Positions 3,473-27,407 of a stretch of DNA of 32,292 nucleotides are shown in pieces; position 1 is the stretch's first letter, and each line of letters opens with the position of its first letter. Origin of the DNA: a virus. The DNA lies in IMG/VR virus record IMGVR_UViG_3300027977_000119, positions 1 to 32,292 of that record; one strand, 5' to 3'. The notes beneath the pieces are model-generated. The model saw nothing but the letters and a program-made list of their open reading frames with translations, did no database searches and was not told where the DNA came from. Both the position numbers and the translations under genes were made by a program.

Positions 3473-6319
3473 TTATCTCAATGCAAGTATGAGTGGGGTA
3501 ACTTCTGCCTGTATTGCTTTACTAAAATCTCTTCCTCTAATTGTTGCTGTTGGTTGATTGATTTGAAAACCTTCACCAATATCAAAATTACCTTTTTGAT
3601 CTGTGCTTGTAAATGGAATTTGTGCTCCATCTAAAGCAACAATTTCGTTTGCTTTAATTGGAACACCCCCAGTAAAGGGTGTTGCTGTATTTATGTCAGT
3701 GCCCGTGCCAATATATTCGAATGAATGCGAACTTGTTAAAATTCTACTAATTCTTCTAAATGAAACTTGCTCTCCACCAAATAACTCATAAGGAATAAAT
3801 TCAGTAAATGTAACTGTCGTAATTCCTGCAGTATTTGCTGTTGCAGAATCAACTGCAAAATAAATTGGTCTTGTAATCACTTCCGCAGTTGCACTACCAC
3901 CATCAATAAAAACTTCTAGGTTTTGTGTTGCCAGATAATTTCTACCACTATTTACAACATCAATTGCAGTAATTGCACCACTGACTTCATCAATAGTTGG
4001 ACTTAATTCTGCAATAATTCCTTGCGGACCTTTTGGTTGTTGAGAATTATCACTAATATCACGAATAATAATAGTTGGAGGAGAAGCAGAACTATATCCA
4101 CTTCCACCATTAGTAACTACTATTTCTTGAATATCGACCATAGGGTCTTGTATCACACCGCTCCCAATAGCATCTGGATAATTGCTTAAATTTATCTTGA
4201 AGAATAACGTTTGTCCATCATAAGGTCTTCTTGAATTTCCAACATTTTCAAAAGTAACAATATCACTACCGGCATCAACTCCAGTTTGCCCTCTCGTTGG
4301 TGGATAAGTTCCCACAGTTCCTGTGAATTCTGTAGATCCAATTCCTACAGCATATAATCCATAATTACCGAATGATGAATTTGAGTTTGTGAGGTCACAA
4401 GATCCTCCAGTATCACAATAAATTCCAATATCACAATTAATAGTAAAGATAGAAACTAACTGGGCATAACCATTATTTGTAATTGAAACACCAATACCAT
4501 TTTCATTATATTGTGTAAATGAATCGCAAACCATGCATTTAAGATCGTTTCCGGGTGTAGACGCAGTAGCGTGATCACCATTAATTTTCATGCCAATACT
4601 GCCCGTCATAAAATTGGTGCAGTTTCTAATATATGGAGATCTCCATCTTCCTGTCGGACCTTCAGTTGCAGGTCCTGGTGCAATGTATCCAGAAACAGCA
4701 TAATCTGATGGAATAGTTGAAGGAAATGCAACAGCACCACAACCACTATGAGCAATCGATACACTTGACCCTGCAAAGTTTATGTTTTCAATTAAACATC
4801 CTCTTCTTACATGAAAAACATCTTTAGTTATATTAAGTGGCCTAATTGTGACAAGTCTTAAGTCTTGTCCAGTTACAGTAACATCTGTGCGAAGACCAAT
4901 TGGATTATTCTCAAGATAAACACCAGGTCTAATGACAATAGTATCTCCCGGTTCCGCTATTGATGCTGCAGCACCTACAGTTGCCTTTGCATCTCCCTCA
5001 AGAAAACCAGTATTTGAGTCATTACCATCTTTTGTAACCCAAATTGTATTTTGAGTTTCAACTCCAGGAGGTCTCCATGACACTCCAGTTCCAACAGAAG
5101 CAAGTCGATAATCAGTTTTTCCTATAGCAGTGCTTCCATTAATATCAATTAATGAAGAATCAAGTTCTAAAGTTCCAGTTAGTTTTGTATTTCCACCAAC
5201 ATTTAGATTTTTTTCAATTCCAACTCCACCTTGAGTAATTAATGCCCCAGTATCTTTATCTGTAGATTGTGTTGTGCTATTAAAAGTAACATTTCCATCA
5301 ACATCAAGAGTATCATTAAGAGTTGTTGCACCGTCAACGTCTAAAGTTAAGTTTAATGTTGTAGCACCATCAACATCTAACGAATCATTGAGAGTTGTTG
5401 CACCATCAACGTCTAAAGTTAAGTTTAATGTTGTATTACCATCTACGTCTAGGGTTGAATTTAATGTTGTAGCACCGTCAACGTCTAAAGTTAAGTTTAA
5501 TGTTGTATTACCATCTACGTCTAGGGTTGAATTTAATGTTGTAGAACCATCTACATCTAGTGACGAATTAAAATCAACTGCACCAGTTGCGTGAAGAGTT
5601 CCAGTAATATCTAACGTTGATGAAGGACTACTACTTTGTATTCCGACATTAGTCATTCTGTAGATATTGCCATTAGGAGTAGTTCCCCAAAGGTCTTGAG
5701 TCTGAATGTCTGCTATAAAGTTTGGATTACTTGGATTTGGAATTGGAATTATTGTCGAAGTTCCTATGCCAAGACTATTAATTTCTTTAAAATTTAATAC
5801 AGTAAAGGACTTTGCAATTCCAGTAATTGGAATATAAGTTCCATCATCTTGAACATATATTCCCTGACTGAAATTAGGAGTTGCTGCGATCCAACGAACC
5901 CCGCCAGAATCCATATTTAAATAATATCCATTTACACCCGGAGAATTTGCTGAGTCGTAAATGAAATCATCAATTTTTATACTTCCTGCTACATCAACTT
6001 TTTGTTGTGGAATGGTGCTACCAATTCCAACATTCCCAGTTTCAGCAATTACTTTTAATGTAGTGCCCCCAACACCAACATCCAATCTTGATCTTGCTGT
6101 GATTATTCCTGCACTTATACCCCTATCAAAATAAACATTGTCATAAAAATATGACGGTCCATAAAAATTTGCAGTTCCTAAAATGTCTATGTCATTAAAT
6201 ATTTCTTTTTGTTTTGCCTGAAAATCATAATACAAATTTCCATAAACGTAAATGTCCTTGTAGAACTTTACTTCTTCATTAAAAAAAGTTTCTTGACTGA
6301 AGTATTGATTGTTACTCAT
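3473..6319 (-). CDS. Large virion protein with 12-residue repeats and a predicted beta-helix domain
   Basis: A 948-residue protein. Residues 1-250 hold short fibre-like motifs such as GNVGIGSTIPQQKVDV. Residues 254-349 are eight copies of a 12-residue unit built on LDVDGxTTLNxT. Residues 352-375 carry STDKDTGALITQGGVGIEK, shared with the gene at 1-2792. From about residue 425 (TIWVTKDGNDSNTGF, then GDTIVIRPGVYLENN) the sequence looks like a pectate-lyase-type right-handed beta-helix, common in phage proteins that touch the host surface. The C-terminal part has a GSGY motif (VVTNGGSGYSS) also found in the gp5-like protein. The start overlaps the upstream spike-gene stop as ATGA, so the genes are translationally coupled. 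It could be a baseplate component, a short fibre or a glycan-binding protein; no catalytic residues can be assigned. Confidence 0.8.
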   Translation of the reverse strand: MSNNQYFSQETFFNEEVKFYKDIYVYGNLYYDFQAKQKEIFNDIDILGTANFYGPSYFYDNVYFDRGISAGIITARSRLDVGVGGTTLKVIAETGNVGIGSTIPQQKVDVAGSIKIDDFIYDSANSPGVNGYYLNMDSGGVRWIAATPNFSQGIYVQDDGTYIPITGIAKSFTVLNFKEINSLGIGTSTIIPIPNPSNPNFIADIQTQDLWGTTPNGNIYRMTNVGIQSSSPSSTLDITGTLHATGAVDFNSSLDVDGSTTLNSTLDVDGNTTLNLTLDVDGATTLNSTLDVDGNTTLNLTLDVDGATTLNDSLDVDGATTLNLTLDVDGATTLNDTLDVDGNVTFNSTTQSTDKDTGALITQGGVGIEKNLNVGGNTKLTGTLELDSSLIDINGSTAIGKTDYRLASVGTGVSWRPPGVETQNTIWVTKDGNDSNTGFLEGDAKATVGAAASIAEPGDTIVIRPGVYLENNPIGLRTDVTVTGQDLRLVTIRPLNITKDVFHVRRGCLIENINFAGSSVSIAHSGCGAVAFPSTIPSDYAVSGYIAPGPATEGPTGRWRSPYIRNCTNFMTGSIGMKINGDHATASTPGNDLKCMVCDSFTQYNENGIGVSITNNGYAQLVSIFTINCDIGIYCDTGGSCDLTNSNSSFGNYGLYAVGIGSTEFTGTVGTYPPTRGQTGVDAGSDIVTFENVGNSRRPYDGQTLFFKINLSNYPDAIGSGVIQDPMVDIQEIVVTNGGSGYSSASPPTIIIRDISDNSQQPKGPQGIIAELSPTIDEVSGAITAIDVVNSGRNYLATQNLEVFIDGGSATAEVITRPIYFAVDSATANTAGITTVTFTEFIPYELFGGEQVSFRRISRILTSSHSFEYIGTGTDINTATPFTGGVPIKANEIVALDGAQIPFTSTDQKGNFDIGEGFQINQPTATIRGRDFSKAIQAEVTPLILALR
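5273..5560 (-). repeat. Eight tandem 36-bp coding repeats (LDVDGxTTLNxT)
   Basis: Eight consecutive 12-codon units encode residues 254-349 of the 948-residue protein. The fifth position after LDVDG varies among Ser, Asn, Ala and the linker among NST, NLT, NDS, NDT. Units alternate, and longer blocks of neighbouring units are near-identical at DNA level, which indicates recent expansion by slippage or unequal recombination. The reading frame is maintained throughout. Confidence 0.9.
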
Positions 6320-10249: not shown

Positions 10250-12159
10250 TATAGATATGCTAAATCGAGTAAGAGTTTATTCTTAATAAAGTTATTTAAC
10301 AGTTTAAATTCAGTGATTGTTGGTGTTACTGTGGGTTGCTGTTGCATAGGATAAGATACTTGAGGTTGTTGTGGTTGAGTATCATCAATGAAAAGTATTT
10401 GTGATCCTTTTCTTTCAGGAGTCATTGCAGCAGGTTGCTGTAGTTTTGGTTGTGCTGAGATTTGTGCTTCTCTTCTTTCTACAGGTGCATAAGGTATTTT
10501 TCCAGAAGATAACATAGAAATATAATTTGCAACAACTGCATCAGGTGCTTGAATATGAACGTGAGTTCCATCAACTCCAGATGGACTAACTCTTCCAGTA
10601 TATCCCTGCAAACCAAGAATAGTTCCTACAGAAACTTTATCACCCTTTTTAACATTTAGAGAATTAAAATGTCCTAGTTCTACAAGACCTTGAGAAGATT
10701 GTATTTCTACCCAGTTACCACCTGCCCCAGCACTTCCTGAAAAATTTATAGTTCCAGAAACTGGGGATGGAACTGGTATGTTTAAAAATTGATTACCTTT
10801 ATATAAAGTAAAATCTTGCCTCAATCTATTTCCACCATATGTTGTTCTAGTTGAACCGCGATGTGGTGGTAATTGACCTAAACTTGTTATATTTCTTCCA
10901 TTTCTTGTTACTCTATATCCACTTAAATTTGTTGTTTGCGAAGGTGATGGTGCTTGAGGAGTTGGAGATGTAAAAGTAACAGGTGTTCTTTGTGCCTGTT
11001 TAATAATTGCAATTTCTTGTGCAGAATATTTTGATCCTCCAGCAGTCCAAGCACCTATACCTTGCGATTTTAACACTGCAAGTCCCATTTTATCTTGATT
11101 TTCTGGACTGAATATATCATTAGGTGTTAATCCGGCACCTTTCATTGCAGATGGAAATGTTATTGGAATAATTTGATATTTTCCTGCTGCATAAATTCCA
11201 TAATTACTAACTTGAGGATTTCTTTTATCCATTAAATATGATTGTCTCTGCATAATTTCACCAAGAGTCATATTGGTTAAATTTTTACCAATAATATCCT
11301 TTGATGTTTTCCCCCCCCTTGTAGAACCAACAATTTTATCACCAATAGTTCCTTGATTCATTGCATCATAATTACCACCACTTTCTGGTCCTGCAATAAT
11401 GTCCAATGCTTGTTTATGAATTCCAGAAACTGTTCTTGTAGTGACACCCTCTTGAGGAATTGGAGGAAACATTGTATCTGGACGTGTTTCTCCAAGTCCA
11501 GGTGCTTTTTCACCAGTTTCCAATGATTCTGTCAGTGGTGTTGTAAAAAGTTTAAAGGTGTCTGTAATGTTAGTTCCTAAGTCCTGAATAGAAAGATTTA
11601 ATTCTTCAAAAGATCTTGCAACGGTTCCTTCTCCAGCAAACTCATCAAAATCTAGGCGAATGATTGCATCAAAAGAATATTTTAAAGTATCTCCAAAATA
11701 TTTGATTATACTTTGCATATTAGAAACCATATTATACATAGATCTTCCAAAAGAATTAATCCTAGATATAAACTCCTTCCCCATGAAAATCCATGTTGGT
11801 AGATTTTCTACAATCCAACCAGCAAATGTAAATCCTAAAAATCCCAATATTCTACCTAAAGGTCCTTTTTCACTTCTAGAAGAAAATGAAAGACCTAATC
11901 GTGGGGATGTTGATACTCTTGTTGATTCAATTTGATCTTCAAGTTCTTGTCTTTTAGATGCCTCTTCTCTTCTAGAATTTAAAATATCAGACCTTGTAAA
12001 TAATTCTCTTTTAACTCTGGTGTTTGTTGCAATAATTCTTGAAATATTTTCTACAGAATTGTTTACTGCTGATGTGCTTTTTTTAGTATCAGATAGTGTC
12101 TGAGAAATACTTTGAATGTTTATAGATGACTTTCGAAGAGATTCTGTTATTGCTGACAT
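10249..12159 (-). CDS. Tail-associated muralytic protein: coiled coil, lysozyme-like domain, degenerate M23-like domain
   Basis: A 636-residue protein. Residues 1-85 look coiled-coil. Residues 100-125 (GRILGFLGFTFAGWIVENLP) are hydrophobic and resemble a segment of the neighbouring tape-measure candidate. Residues about 245-390 look like a lytic transglycosylase or lysozyme: GPESGGNYDAMN around candidate catalytic E259, and YGIYAAGKYQIIPITF later. Residues about 440-540 look like an M23/LytM fold: VPSPVSGTI, LGHFNSLNVKKGDKV (H497) and GTHVHIQ (H533, H535). The usual first zinc ligand, His in HxxxD, appears to be Arg (R445 before D449), so this domain may bind rather than cut. The C-terminus is Gln/Pro rich. 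The protein probably replaces the lysozyme activity missing from the gp5-like hub. A G8 tract lies at 11311-11318. Confidence 0.7.
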   Translation of the reverse strand: MSAITESLRKSSINIQSISQTLSDTKKSTSAVNNSVENISRIIATNTRVKRELFTRSDILNSRREEASKRQELEDQIESTRVSTSPRLGLSFSSRSEKGPLGRILGFLGFTFAGWIVENLPTWIFMGKEFISRINSFGRSMYNMVSNMQSIIKYFGDTLKYSFDAIIRLDFDEFAGEGTVARSFEELNLSIQDLGTNITDTFKLFTTPLTESLETGEKAPGLGETRPDTMFPPIPQEGVTTRTVSGIHKQALDIIAGPESGGNYDAMNQGTIGDKIVGSTRGGKTSKDIIGKNLTNMTLGEIMQRQSYLMDKRNPQVSNYGIYAAGKYQIIPITFPSAMKGAGLTPNDIFSPENQDKMGLAVLKSQGIGAWTAGGSKYSAQEIAIIKQAQRTPVTFTSPTPQAPSPSQTTNLSGYRVTRNGRNITSLGQLPPHRGSTRTTYGGNRLRQDFTLYKGNQFLNIPVPSPVSGTINFSGSAGAGGNWVEIQSSQGLVELGHFNSLNVKKGDKVSVGTILGLQGYTGRVSPSGVDGTHVHIQAPDAVVANYISMLSSGKIPYAPVERREAQISAQPKLQQPAAMTPERKGSQILFIDDTQPQQPQVSYPMQQQPTVTPTITEFKLLNNFIKNKLLLDLAYL

Positions 12160-25762: not shown

Positions 25763-26005
25763 TTAGGACTTGATGATTTGCTTCTCTTTGAGGAATTTGA
25801 TTGTCTCAACTGACCCTCCTAATTTTTGATCATCACAGACGACTTGTGGAAATGTAGATCCTTCACCAAACTCGGCATAAAACTCTTCTTTGGTAAAGTG
25901 CTCGTTGAGATTATAAACCACAAAGTTGCTATCTGTCAACTCTAATACCTTTTTAACCTTGAAGCAGTATTCGCAGTTTTCTTTACTATACACTGTGAAG
26001 TTCAT
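25763..26005 (-). CDS. Glutaredoxin
   Basis: An 80-residue protein. The redox pair is CEYC at residues 11-14. The cis-Pro block STFPQVV and the GG motif (LGGSVETIKFL) complete the family signature. Its size matches short phage glutaredoxins. It would use glutathione to reduce ribonucleotide reductase or other disulfides, fitting the nucleotide-supply role of the nearby thyX. A TATAAATT box lies 21 bp upstream in the tail of the preceding terminator. Confidence 0.9.
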   Translation of the reverse strand: MNFTVYSKENCEYCFKVKKVLELTDSNFVVYNLNEHFTKEEFYAEFGEGSTFPQVVCDDQKLGGSVETIKFLKEKQIIKS

Positions 26006-26026
26006 ATGTCATTAAGATTTATTAAT

Positions 26027-26034
26027 AATTTATA
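26027..26034 (-). promoter_or_regulatory. Near-consensus late box TATAAATT for glutaredoxin
   Basis: TATAAATT on the minus strand (7 of 8 bases of TATAAATA), 21 bp upstream of the glutaredoxin ATG and overlapping the T-rich tail of the terminator at 26039-26062. Confidence 0.4.
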
Positions 26035-26038
26035 AAAG

Positions 26039-26062
26039 AAAAAAGAGGAGATTTCTCTCCCC
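26039..26062 (-). terminator. Strong intrinsic terminator upstream of glutaredoxin
   Basis: On the minus strand a 7-bp stem GGGGAGA/TCTCCTC (26062-26056 with 26051-26045, one G-U pair) with a GAAA tetraloop, followed by TTTTTTCTTTT. It is related in sequence to the gp53/gp32 hairpin, which also has GGAGA, GAAA and TCTCC. Confidence 0.8.
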
Positions 26063-26065
26063 TTA

Positions 26066-26113
26066 TTATACCACCAACCCCACCTCTTCACACCACTGAA
26101 GAGGGTCTTTCAT
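26066..26113 (-). CDS. Possible 15-residue leader peptide
   Basis: ATG at 26111-26113 begins MKDPLQWCEEVGLVV and ends with two adjacent TAA codons. The hairpin 26083-26104 lies inside the frame and the terminator follows 4 nt after the first stop. This arrangement resembles a transcription attenuator leader. The ribosome binding site is poor (TGAG just before the ATG), so translation is uncertain. Confidence 0.3.
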   Translation of the reverse strand: MKDPLQWCEEVGLVV

Positions 26114-26147
26114 TCTCAAAGATGCAAAGAACTTGAAAGACTTGAAT

Positions 26148-26176
26148 ATTATAAAGCAAAAGAAAAACTCTGTCAA
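26148..26176 (-). promoter_or_regulatory. Perfect consensus sigma70 promoter
   Basis: TTGACA (26176-26171), spacer of exactly 17 bp, TATAAT (26153-26148), all on the minus strand. The -35 box is part of the 3' stem of the terminator at 26157-26190 and the T-tract of that terminator is the spacer. Transcription would run towards the glutaredoxin gene. Confidence 0.8.
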
Positions 26177-26190
26177 GGGGTTGACAAAGT
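26157..26190 (-). terminator. Intrinsic terminator closing the tail-fibre operon
   Basis: On the minus strand ACTTTGTCAA (26190-26181), CCCC loop, TTGACAGAGT (26176-26167): a 10-bp stem with one G-U pair, followed by TTTTCTTTT. It lies 60 bp after the stop of the fibre gene at 26250. Confidence 0.65.
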
Positions 26191-26249
26191 TGATTTTTGT
26201 GCCTAGAGTAGGTTTGTTGCTTTTGAAGGATAGGTTATAGTTTTAATTA

Positions 26250-27407
26250 TTATAAGAGATATCCACCCCAATAAATCCAGTGTGTGCTACCACCTATTGA
26301 TGTATTAATAGCACTAAAATAGAATAATTCTACATAATCATTTGCAGCAAGATTTAAAACTATTTGGAAGGGAGATAAGGGACTGTCAGTAATACAATAA
26401 TTTCCTCCAGTAAGAAAATCCGGAGCTCCACTATTATTTACTTTTACACCAAATGCATATCTTTCTCCATTTGTATTTCCCACAGACCATCCACCAGCAT
26501 AAAACATATATCTTCCAGCAACTGGTGCAACAAATCTTCCACTTGTTGAAGTTGAATAAACTGAACCAATATCATAAGATTCTGTTAAAATACCATTACT
26601 AATTAATTGCCAGGTAGCAGAAACGGAAAGAGTTGAATTTCGATAAGCAAGAAATGCTGGTTGATAAGGTCTAATTAGAACTCCATTAGAGTTCAGAGTC
26701 ATTTGAGATCTAACATTAGCATTATCTGGTTTTGTATAAAAATTAAAATAACCACCAGTGTCAGCAGCATTTGCGACATTGGTGTTTGTATTACATTCAA
26801 TATATGCTTTAATACCAGGACTTGCAGTTACACTAGTTCCAGATACTTTATTTCCAAATACAAGAGTTCCAACTCTTGATGCACTTGGATTTGCATTTGG
26901 ACTTACTAATGCTAAACATCCATCAGAAGGATTTCCTCCACCAGCATTTCCAGAAAAAGTATAGACTAATTGATTAGTATCTTTACCCCAAGATAAATCT
27001 GAAATAGTAATTCCAGACCCAAAAGTTGCTTCACCTCTTACGTCAAGAGGTTTGACTGGACTTATTGTATTAATACCGACTCTATTATTACTATCAACCC
27101 TTAAAACTTCTGTGCCACCTTCACCAATTGCTACAGTATCAGGTGATGGAAAGAATATACCAGTGTTACTATCCCCCGTTGGACTTATTGAGGGAGCACT
27201 AGTAGATCCTGCAGAAACTACAAGACTTGTAAAAGTAGAAACCCCAGAAGAACTTAAAGTATTATTACCAATCTTAATTGTTCCTGACTGAACATCTAAA
27301 GCACTCGTTGGCACAGAGGTTCCAATACCGACTCTACCACTAGAATCCTGATAGACTCCACCAGTTCCAGATTGATGTAACCAACGATTAACCCTTATGT
27401 CAGACAT
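26250..27407 (-). CDS. Tail-fibre protein with C1q-like C-terminal domain
   Basis: A 385-residue protein. It begins MSDIRVNRWLHQSGTGGVYQ and has several fibre motifs of the form GRVGIGTSVPTSALDV and NRVGINTISPVKPLDVRG. Residues about 255-385 form a C1q/TNF-like jelly roll: ILTESYDIGS, GRFVAPVAGRYMFYAGG, LAANDYVELFYF and the terminal THWIYWGGYLL. Such heads often bind receptors or glycans. A CATAAATA late box lies upstream, overlapping the stop of the 90-residue gene. It is the last gene of the fibre cassette, with a terminator downstream. Confidence 0.8.
   Translation of the reverse strand: MSDIRVNRWLHQSGTGGVYQDSSGRVGIGTSVPTSALDVQSGTIKIGNNTLSSSGVSTFTSLVVSAGSTSAPSISPTGDSNTGIFFPSPDTVAIGEGGTEVLRVDSNNRVGINTISPVKPLDVRGEATFGSGITISDLSWGKDTNQLVYTFSGNAGGGNPSDGCLALVSPNANPSASRVGTLVFGNKVSGTSVTASPGIKAYIECNTNTNVANAADTGGYFNFYTKPDNANVRSQMTLNSNGVLIRPYQPAFLAYRNSTLSVSATWQLISNGILTESYDIGSVYSTSTSGRFVAPVAGRYMFYAGGWSVGNTNGERYAFGVKVNNSGAPDFLTGGNYCITDSPLSPFQIVLNLAANDYVELFYFSAINTSIGGSTHWIYWGGYLL

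Follow-up and report, generated by a model that had tools for sequence, protein, structure and literature searches.

A putative two-headed promoter cassette of cyanomyoviruses, with a terminator-like hairpin over its -35 box and a candidate structured RNA downstream

Can one short segment of phage DNA both end one transcription unit and begin the next, and what would the new transcript contain? The locus that raises this question lies in a stretch of 32,292 bases, here called the window, which is an IMG/VR virus record and is read as a cyanomyovirus fragment. The closest named relative of the region is Synechococcus phage S-SRM01 (Kyanoviridae, Serangoonvirus), at about 91% identity over 67% of a 2.5-kb query. 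A preliminary description had proposed that a 43-bp segment of the window stops late transcription of a fibre operon and starts a host-type early transcript in the same direction, as a compact switch. The genes flanking the segment are all on the minus strand, with a tail-fibre-type run down to 26250, a gap of 244 bases, and then nrdC. By sequence and pattern scan, all elements of the segment are also on the minus strand:

26250 to 27407, minus strand: last fibre-type gene, 385 aa (open reading frame; PHROG tail fibre families, best E 3.8e-11); the stem comes after its 3' end
26166 to 26191, minus strand: terminator-like stem-loop AACTTTGTCAA-CCCC-TTGACAGAGTT, 11 pairs, loop CCCC, with a -35 box in its 3' arm (sequence, pattern scan)
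26171 to 26176, minus strand: -35 box TTGACA of the minus-strand promoter (mean identity 0.96, 49 loci)
26158 to 26167, minus strand: T-tract TTTTTCTTTT in the 17-nt spacer (26154-26170; spacer identity 0.51, 49 loci)
26148 to 26153, minus strand: -10 box TATAAT of the minus-strand promoter (mean identity 0.99, 49 loci)
25763 to 26005, minus strand: nrdC-type glutaredoxin, 80 aa (open reading frame; PHROG thioredoxin domain, E 8e-18)

The stem proposed to end the fibre operon is present, with 11 pairs, including one G-U and three G-C, rather than the 10 first counted (26191-26166; fold energy -10.9 kcal/mol), and it runs directly into a T-tract with nine T among the ten bases 26167-26158, as an intrinsic terminator does. 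Its 3' arm holds TTGACA at 26176-26171, as had been described, and the distance to TATAAT is exactly 17 nt, with the T-tract inside this spacer (26170-26154). In 40 dinucleotide shuffles, perfect TTGACA-N16-18-TATAAT matches average 0.125, whereas the window has two; a perfect promoter with its -35 box in a stem and a T-tract after it occurs once in the window and in none of the shuffles. Because perfect promoters are rare by chance, and because none of the 40 shuffles has one with stem and T-tract, the claim that a terminator-like hairpin and a sigma70 consensus promoter overlap in the same bases is confirmed. The other perfect match, TTGACA-N18-TATAAT at 25939-25910 on the minus strand, lies within the nrdC frame and is identical in S-SRM01; since it overlaps conserved residues, it may be a coding coincidence or an internal promoter. 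The preliminary description had included neither this match nor the strand, nor two elements taken up below, a second terminator at 26064-26043 and a plus-strand TTGACA at 26181-26186.

Conservation was assessed in 80 nrdC loci taken from viral contigs, with further loci added by a pattern inside the structured RNA described below. In every one of the 50 distinct loci the promoter boxes stand exactly 17 nt apart and depart from the consensus at no more than one of their 12 bases; in 43 the promoter is perfect. Mean pairwise identity across 49 loci is about 0.32 upstream, 0.96 in the -35 box, 0.51 in the spacer, 0.99 in the -10 box, and 0.77-0.79 downstream. On this comparison such a profile marks a promoter under selection, and homology breaks off sharply at its upstream edge. 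A stem of at least five pairs covers the -35 box in 19 of the 50 distinct loci, and stem plus T-tract occurs in five (the window's own type, L128, L149, L156, and L175), a count that does not sustain the terminator half as a feature of the nrdC locus in relatives. As far as these loci tell, the promoter is the conserved half of the segment and the terminator half is lineage-specific, not conserved at the nrdC locus. The S-SRM01 ortholog retains the palindrome, TTGACA, the 17 nt, and TATGAT, with a spacer, ATTCCACCACGTTCTCT, that has no T-tract; the terminator half is therefore lost there. Under the same stem rule as in the window shuffles, none of 53 S-SRM01 promoters has stem and T-tract on its -35 box. 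Because the stem has only three G-C pairs, and because the T-tract is missing in S-SRM01 and most relatives, the terminator at the stem may be weak or accidental.

The conserved sequence downstream points to what the promoter would make. The stretch from the -10 box to nrdC folds as two hairpins and an intrinsic terminator (-35.6 kcal/mol, z -2.99), the latter only some 80 nt past the predicted start near 26141 and ahead of the nrdC start at 26005:

26038 to 26141, minus strand: structured RNA of about 105 nt, comprising P1 (26141-26105), P2 (26104-26083), and terminator (26064-26043) (covariance model, covariation, fold; start near 26141 predicted)
26043 to 26064, minus strand: second intrinsic terminator, end of the structured RNA (pattern scan; 9 pairs, -11.9 kcal/mol)
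26026 to 26034, minus strand: late-type promoter motif TATAAATTA preceding nrdC (sequence; TATAAAT in 49 of 50 loci, downstream of the RNA terminator)

A covariance model was made from 34 sequences; the window, itself among these source sequences, matches it at 98.9 bits (E 3.3e-24). At E below 1e-10 the model finds the RNA in the window, in S-SRM01, and at 65 of the 80 nrdC loci; it does not find it at the other 15, nor at the S-SKS1 and P-SSM2 loci. At the same threshold it matches 25 of 25 pattern-selected loci against none of 28 control loci, which were drawn from a wide palindrome-plus-promoter pattern scan of viral contigs. In whole-record searches S-SRM01 has a single copy of the RNA, at 10,971-11,079, while S-SKS1, P-SSM2, AG-345-L05, DSL-LC03, S-T4, S-SSM5, and Sf-CH8 have none. 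Locus L185 has a weak second match to the model at 5425-5534 (22.4 bits, E 0.002), probably by chance.

Among 42 distinct RNA sequences, 98.8% of cells in the helices are paired. Changes on both sides occur at 11 of 26 pairs (73 cells), a level reached in none of 500 shuffles and compared with at most five pairs and 23 cells in slid structures, these being counts from an alignment that was fitted to the model and so leans towards the structure, and that related sequences inflate. Compensatory base changes, as expected of a structured RNA family, are thus seen in the proposed helices of the model-fitted alignment. No Rfam 15 family matches the RNA at gathering score, and a search at E up to 10 over 25950-26300 gave weak, unrelated matches only. 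The window's one Rfam match is an intergenic glutamine riboswitch aptamer on the minus strand at 24203-24144 (RF01739, 40.6 bits). A scan of bacterial genomes with an exact RNA pattern, which would miss divergent copies, found no match, and a literature search found no description of the structured RNA or of the cassette discussed below. The covariation suggests that the RNA is a candidate new family.

Several other features of this stretch were set aside. A mini-ORF following the promoter, MKDPLQWCEEVGLVV, was rejected as coding: its start is ACG in S-SRM01, and its frame and length vary among the 42 distinct sequences, which have no conserved reading frame anywhere in the RNA stretch. A second TATAAT at GGTGGTATAATAAGG was rejected as a promoter, being unconserved and GGTTAAT in many loci. 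BLAST fragment matches in E. coli, Enterococcus, and other phages were short and weak, and were taken as chance.

The inverted repeat over the -35 box has an explanation of its own in elements that face the other way:

26181 to 26186, plus strand: -35 box TTGACA of a divergent promoter, in the other stem arm (pattern scan)
26204 to 26209, plus strand: -10 box TAGAGT of the divergent promoter, with a 17-nt spacer (pattern scan; TAGACT in most relatives)
26204 to 26228, minus strand: conserved cassette block CTTCAAAAGCAACAAACCTACTCTA, which on the plus strand would be the -10 box and first transcribed bases

In the window the plus-strand promoter matches 10 of 12 consensus bases, with four of six in TAGAGT. 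A clear upstream block is present in 18 of the 50 distinct loci; all 18 have the stem, the other arm of which is an opposite-strand TTGAC[AG], 17 nt from TAGACT or TAGAGT. The stem would accordingly exist because a second -35 box, that of an opposite-facing promoter, abuts the first. The cassette block recurs in at least 120 viral-contig stretches and three times in S-SRM01, at 10.9, 141.7, and 179.4 kb; an exact-pattern scan of bacterial genomes, in which divergent copies would be missed, gave no match. Selecting by TAGA[CG]T-N-GGTTTGT yields 97 distinct cassettes among the matches listed, and in each of these 97 a spacer of 16-19 nt separates TTGAC from TAGA[CG]T. A divergent-promoter pattern finds 14 sites in nine of ten records, one to three copies in each, and its reversed control finds none. 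The RNA model, run on 89 cassette loci, has no match at E 0.001. Eight viral contigs from the wide palindrome-plus-promoter scan (L003, L005, L009, L031, L034, L048, L051, and L069, among the matches listed) have symmetric divergent promoters, with TATAAT and TTGACA on both strands around one palindrome.

Among the 98 distinct copies listed, 37 lie between uvsW.1 and gp55, 18 between two genes, B and A, on the cassette's reverse strand, and 11 between converging A and B; 27 matched none of four probe proteins (nrdC loci among these), and five matched partially. Gene A encodes a homing-endonuclease-like protein by PHROGs and is annotated as NAD synthetase in its record. Next to one and the same hairpin cassette the gene points one way in 18 distinct loci and the other way in 11 (e.g. 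L302 and L249), as if inverted or replaced. At S-SRM01 141,640-141,780 (L248) and the 37 loci just named, where uvsW.1 and gp55, the gene of the late sigma factor, flank the cassette, many copies have a forward sigma70-like promoter facing gp55. A forward TTGTCA-N16-18-TATAAT-like promoter follows the cassette in 45 of the 98, among the matches listed. One cassette-bearing contig, L295, also carries tRNA genes and an abiF RNA (RF03085; 1391-1355, minus strand).

The same arrangement, which the preliminary description had suggested looking for in related genomes, is present there at a locus other than nrdC. A hairpin covers the -35 box in 31 of the 97 distinct cassettes, 28 of which also have a T-tract in the spacer (among the matches listed). 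The hairpin stems differ around a constant TTGAC, as GGGG/CCCC, GCACC/GGTGC, GGAGG/CTCC, GAGGG/CCCTC, and GGGGTC/GACCCC. They were judged sequence by sequence; an alignment-based count of covariation was dropped because the aligner set the stem subtypes out of register. The cassette at this third locus, from gene B to gene A, combines a terminator hairpin, a -35 box in the loop, and co-directional genes. In the ten B-to-A loci examined, the gene A start codon is 53-54 nt from the first -10 base, in nine an upstream ORF stops 30-35 nt short of the -35 box, and the promoter of the hairpin cassette faces a co-directional gene in all ten. The differing stems on a fixed TTGAC, together with these ten loci, therefore mark same-direction sharing of bases by terminator and promoter as a repeated arrangement in these phages. 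Its place in the window is the boundary between the fibre genes and the RNA.

On the reading that we consider probable, freshwater and estuarine cyanomyoviruses carry a two-headed regulatory cassette, composite in this lineage, and the 43-bp segment is its minus-strand half. Transcription by a sigma70-type RNA polymerase of the host would begin near 26141, on the minus strand; the resulting structured RNA of about 105 nt would end at its own terminator (26064-26043), and nrdC would be read separately, from its late-type promoter. Because the 17-nt spacer is T-rich in this lineage, the repeat would also form an intrinsic-terminator-like hairpin after the fibre genes. Comparison among loci shows the conservation of the promoter, the covariation of the RNA, the second terminator, the consensus of the divergent promoter, and the recurrence of the composite design; from these we infer that each element works in the cell, the timing, and the role of the RNA. 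It counts against this account that an RNA read from the plus-strand promoter would lie antisense to the fibre gene and has no known use.

The switch as first proposed would end the late fibre unit and start a co-directional early operon from nrdC onwards. Its stem, T-tract, and promoter are all present, bases are shared in a single direction, and the B-to-A loci show the design again, so that part of the proposal stands. The idea that the segment starts an early operon fares less well: the terminator at 26064-26043 lies ahead of nrdC, the conserved downstream product is the RNA of about 105 nt, and nrdC has a late-type TATAAATTA motif of its own. Read-through of that terminator could still carry transcripts into nrdC; against this, few loci have stem plus T-tract, and S-SRM01 lacks the T-tract and has no such promoter among its 53. 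We regard the full switch as unlikely; what the promoter chiefly makes is most likely the small structured RNA, not an early operon. That RNA might itself be a cis-acting leader of nrdC, attenuator- or riboswitch-like, with early transcripts ending at 26043 unless a signal permits run-on into the gene, a lesser possibility that nonetheless deserves weight. It precedes nrdC at 65 of 80 loci, an intrinsic terminator just before a gene is usual attenuator anatomy, and the conserved unpaired segments would fit a ligand pocket. Yet in L231 no nrdC adjoins the RNA and its terminator; a separate promoter, TTGACA/TATAAT, and a different gene come next. In L136 an ORF between 1261 and 1940, HNH endonuclease-like by eye, separates the RNA from nrdC. 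The late-type motif also intervenes between terminator and nrdC in 49 of 50 loci. For the one antiterminator tried, pairing between the 5' arms of P2 and of the terminator, no covariation was seen: complementarity was 6.40 within sequences and 6.52 for dealt arms, at least as high in 280 of 300 deals. Because it is also found away from nrdC, the RNA is most likely a free small RNA with a presumed regulatory role, although nearly all copies adjoin nrdC, which a free RNA would not need. On the evidence of these loci we favour the free RNA over the leader, with some doubt left.

The palindrome could instead be an operator, bound over the -35 box by a regulatory protein, with the terminator and plus-strand promoter as side effects. 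TGTCAA-N3-4-TTGACA is indeed retained while the spacer varies, and L149, L156, and L175 change both arms together (CGTCAA/TTGACG) at a cost to the -35 consensus. We think this quite improbable, as the palindrome is found in only 19 of 50 loci and always with the cassette block (a clear one in 18 loci, a variant one in L128), and the fixed distance to TAGA[CG]T is better explained by a second promoter. A wider reading of the two-headed cassette can be offered only tentatively and is rather doubtful as a whole. It would be a hitherto undescribed cassette of freshwater cyanomyoviruses in which one palindromic -35 region serves two diverging sigma70 promoters, in many copies inside a terminator hairpin. 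All reverse transcripts would share their first bases, complementary to the 3' ends of cassette-bearing messages (fibre genes, uvsW.1), so that the copies could form a shared-seed antisense network also touching gp55, while at nrdC the other head would drive a new class of structured small RNA.

In the PeSL (promoter-early stem-loop) cassettes of T4-like phages, a strong sigma70-like promoter is joined to an effective terminator stem-loop; they occur in many copies, dense in hyperplastic regions, and are linked to gene shuffling by recombination. They were reportedly described by Arbiol in 2010 and Comeau in 2014. The present cassette resembles them in pairing a terminator-like stem-loop with a sigma70-like promoter, predicted in the window with 12 of 12 consensus bases and a 17-nt spacer; like them, it belongs to a T4-like phage and occupies intergenic gaps close to variable genes. 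Unlike PeSLs, which are numerous, it sits at recurring loci with one to three copies per matching record (nine of ten records), not densely in hyperplastic regions; the hairpin encloses its -35 box, in stem or loop, a divergent promoter accompanies it, and the downstream product is a structured RNA. As for recombination, homology breaks at the -35 box (0.33-0.35 before it, 0.96 at it) and gene A occurs in either orientation at 18 and 11 loci. The cassette is PeSL-like in form but is not classed as a PeSL, since its copies are few and any role of it in recombination is putative. For a variable region of S-PM2, the accessible portion of PMC4503421, a cyanophage paper in which both PeSL reports are cited, gives a single early promoter and two potential stem-loops, describes other T4-like phages as much denser in such elements, and judges the mechanism unlikely in S-PM2.

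T4-like phages have sigma70-like early promoters, also before novel ORFs, and early and late promoters before one gene, according to the available parts of PMC1524935 and PMC2984593; the latter gives the cyanophage late promoter consensus as NATAAATA. The sigma70-like promoter and NATAAATA-type late motif found here are alike in kind, while a shared -35 palindrome and this RNA do not appear in those parts of the two accounts. CfrI of cyanophage S-PM2, as excerpts of PMC2984593 and PMC5931967 report, is an antisense RNA of about 225 nt to psbA and a homing endonuclease gene; the RNA here is likewise a non-coding RNA of a cyanomyovirus but is about 105 nt, intergenic, and near nrdC. Rfam RNAs reported in cyanophages include wcaG, manA, glnA, and abiF (portions of PMC12197685 and PMC9964418); these too are small structured RNAs in cyanophage genomes, whereas the nrdC-locus RNA falls in no Rfam 15 family. 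The words promoter, terminator, glutaredoxin, and riboswitch are absent, by word search, from the main text obtained for the S-SRM01 genome paper (PMC8557907).

This analysis brings to notice a structured RNA beside nrdC, at 65 of 80 related loci, and a promoter cassette before the late sigma gene gp55, both open to testing in the isolated phage S-SRM01. Composite terminator-promoter elements are known from other T4-like phages, and the present cases are cyanophage sequence evidence for them. The differing hairpin stems set on a fixed -35 box offer a clean system in which to ask whether a terminating polymerase restarts in place.
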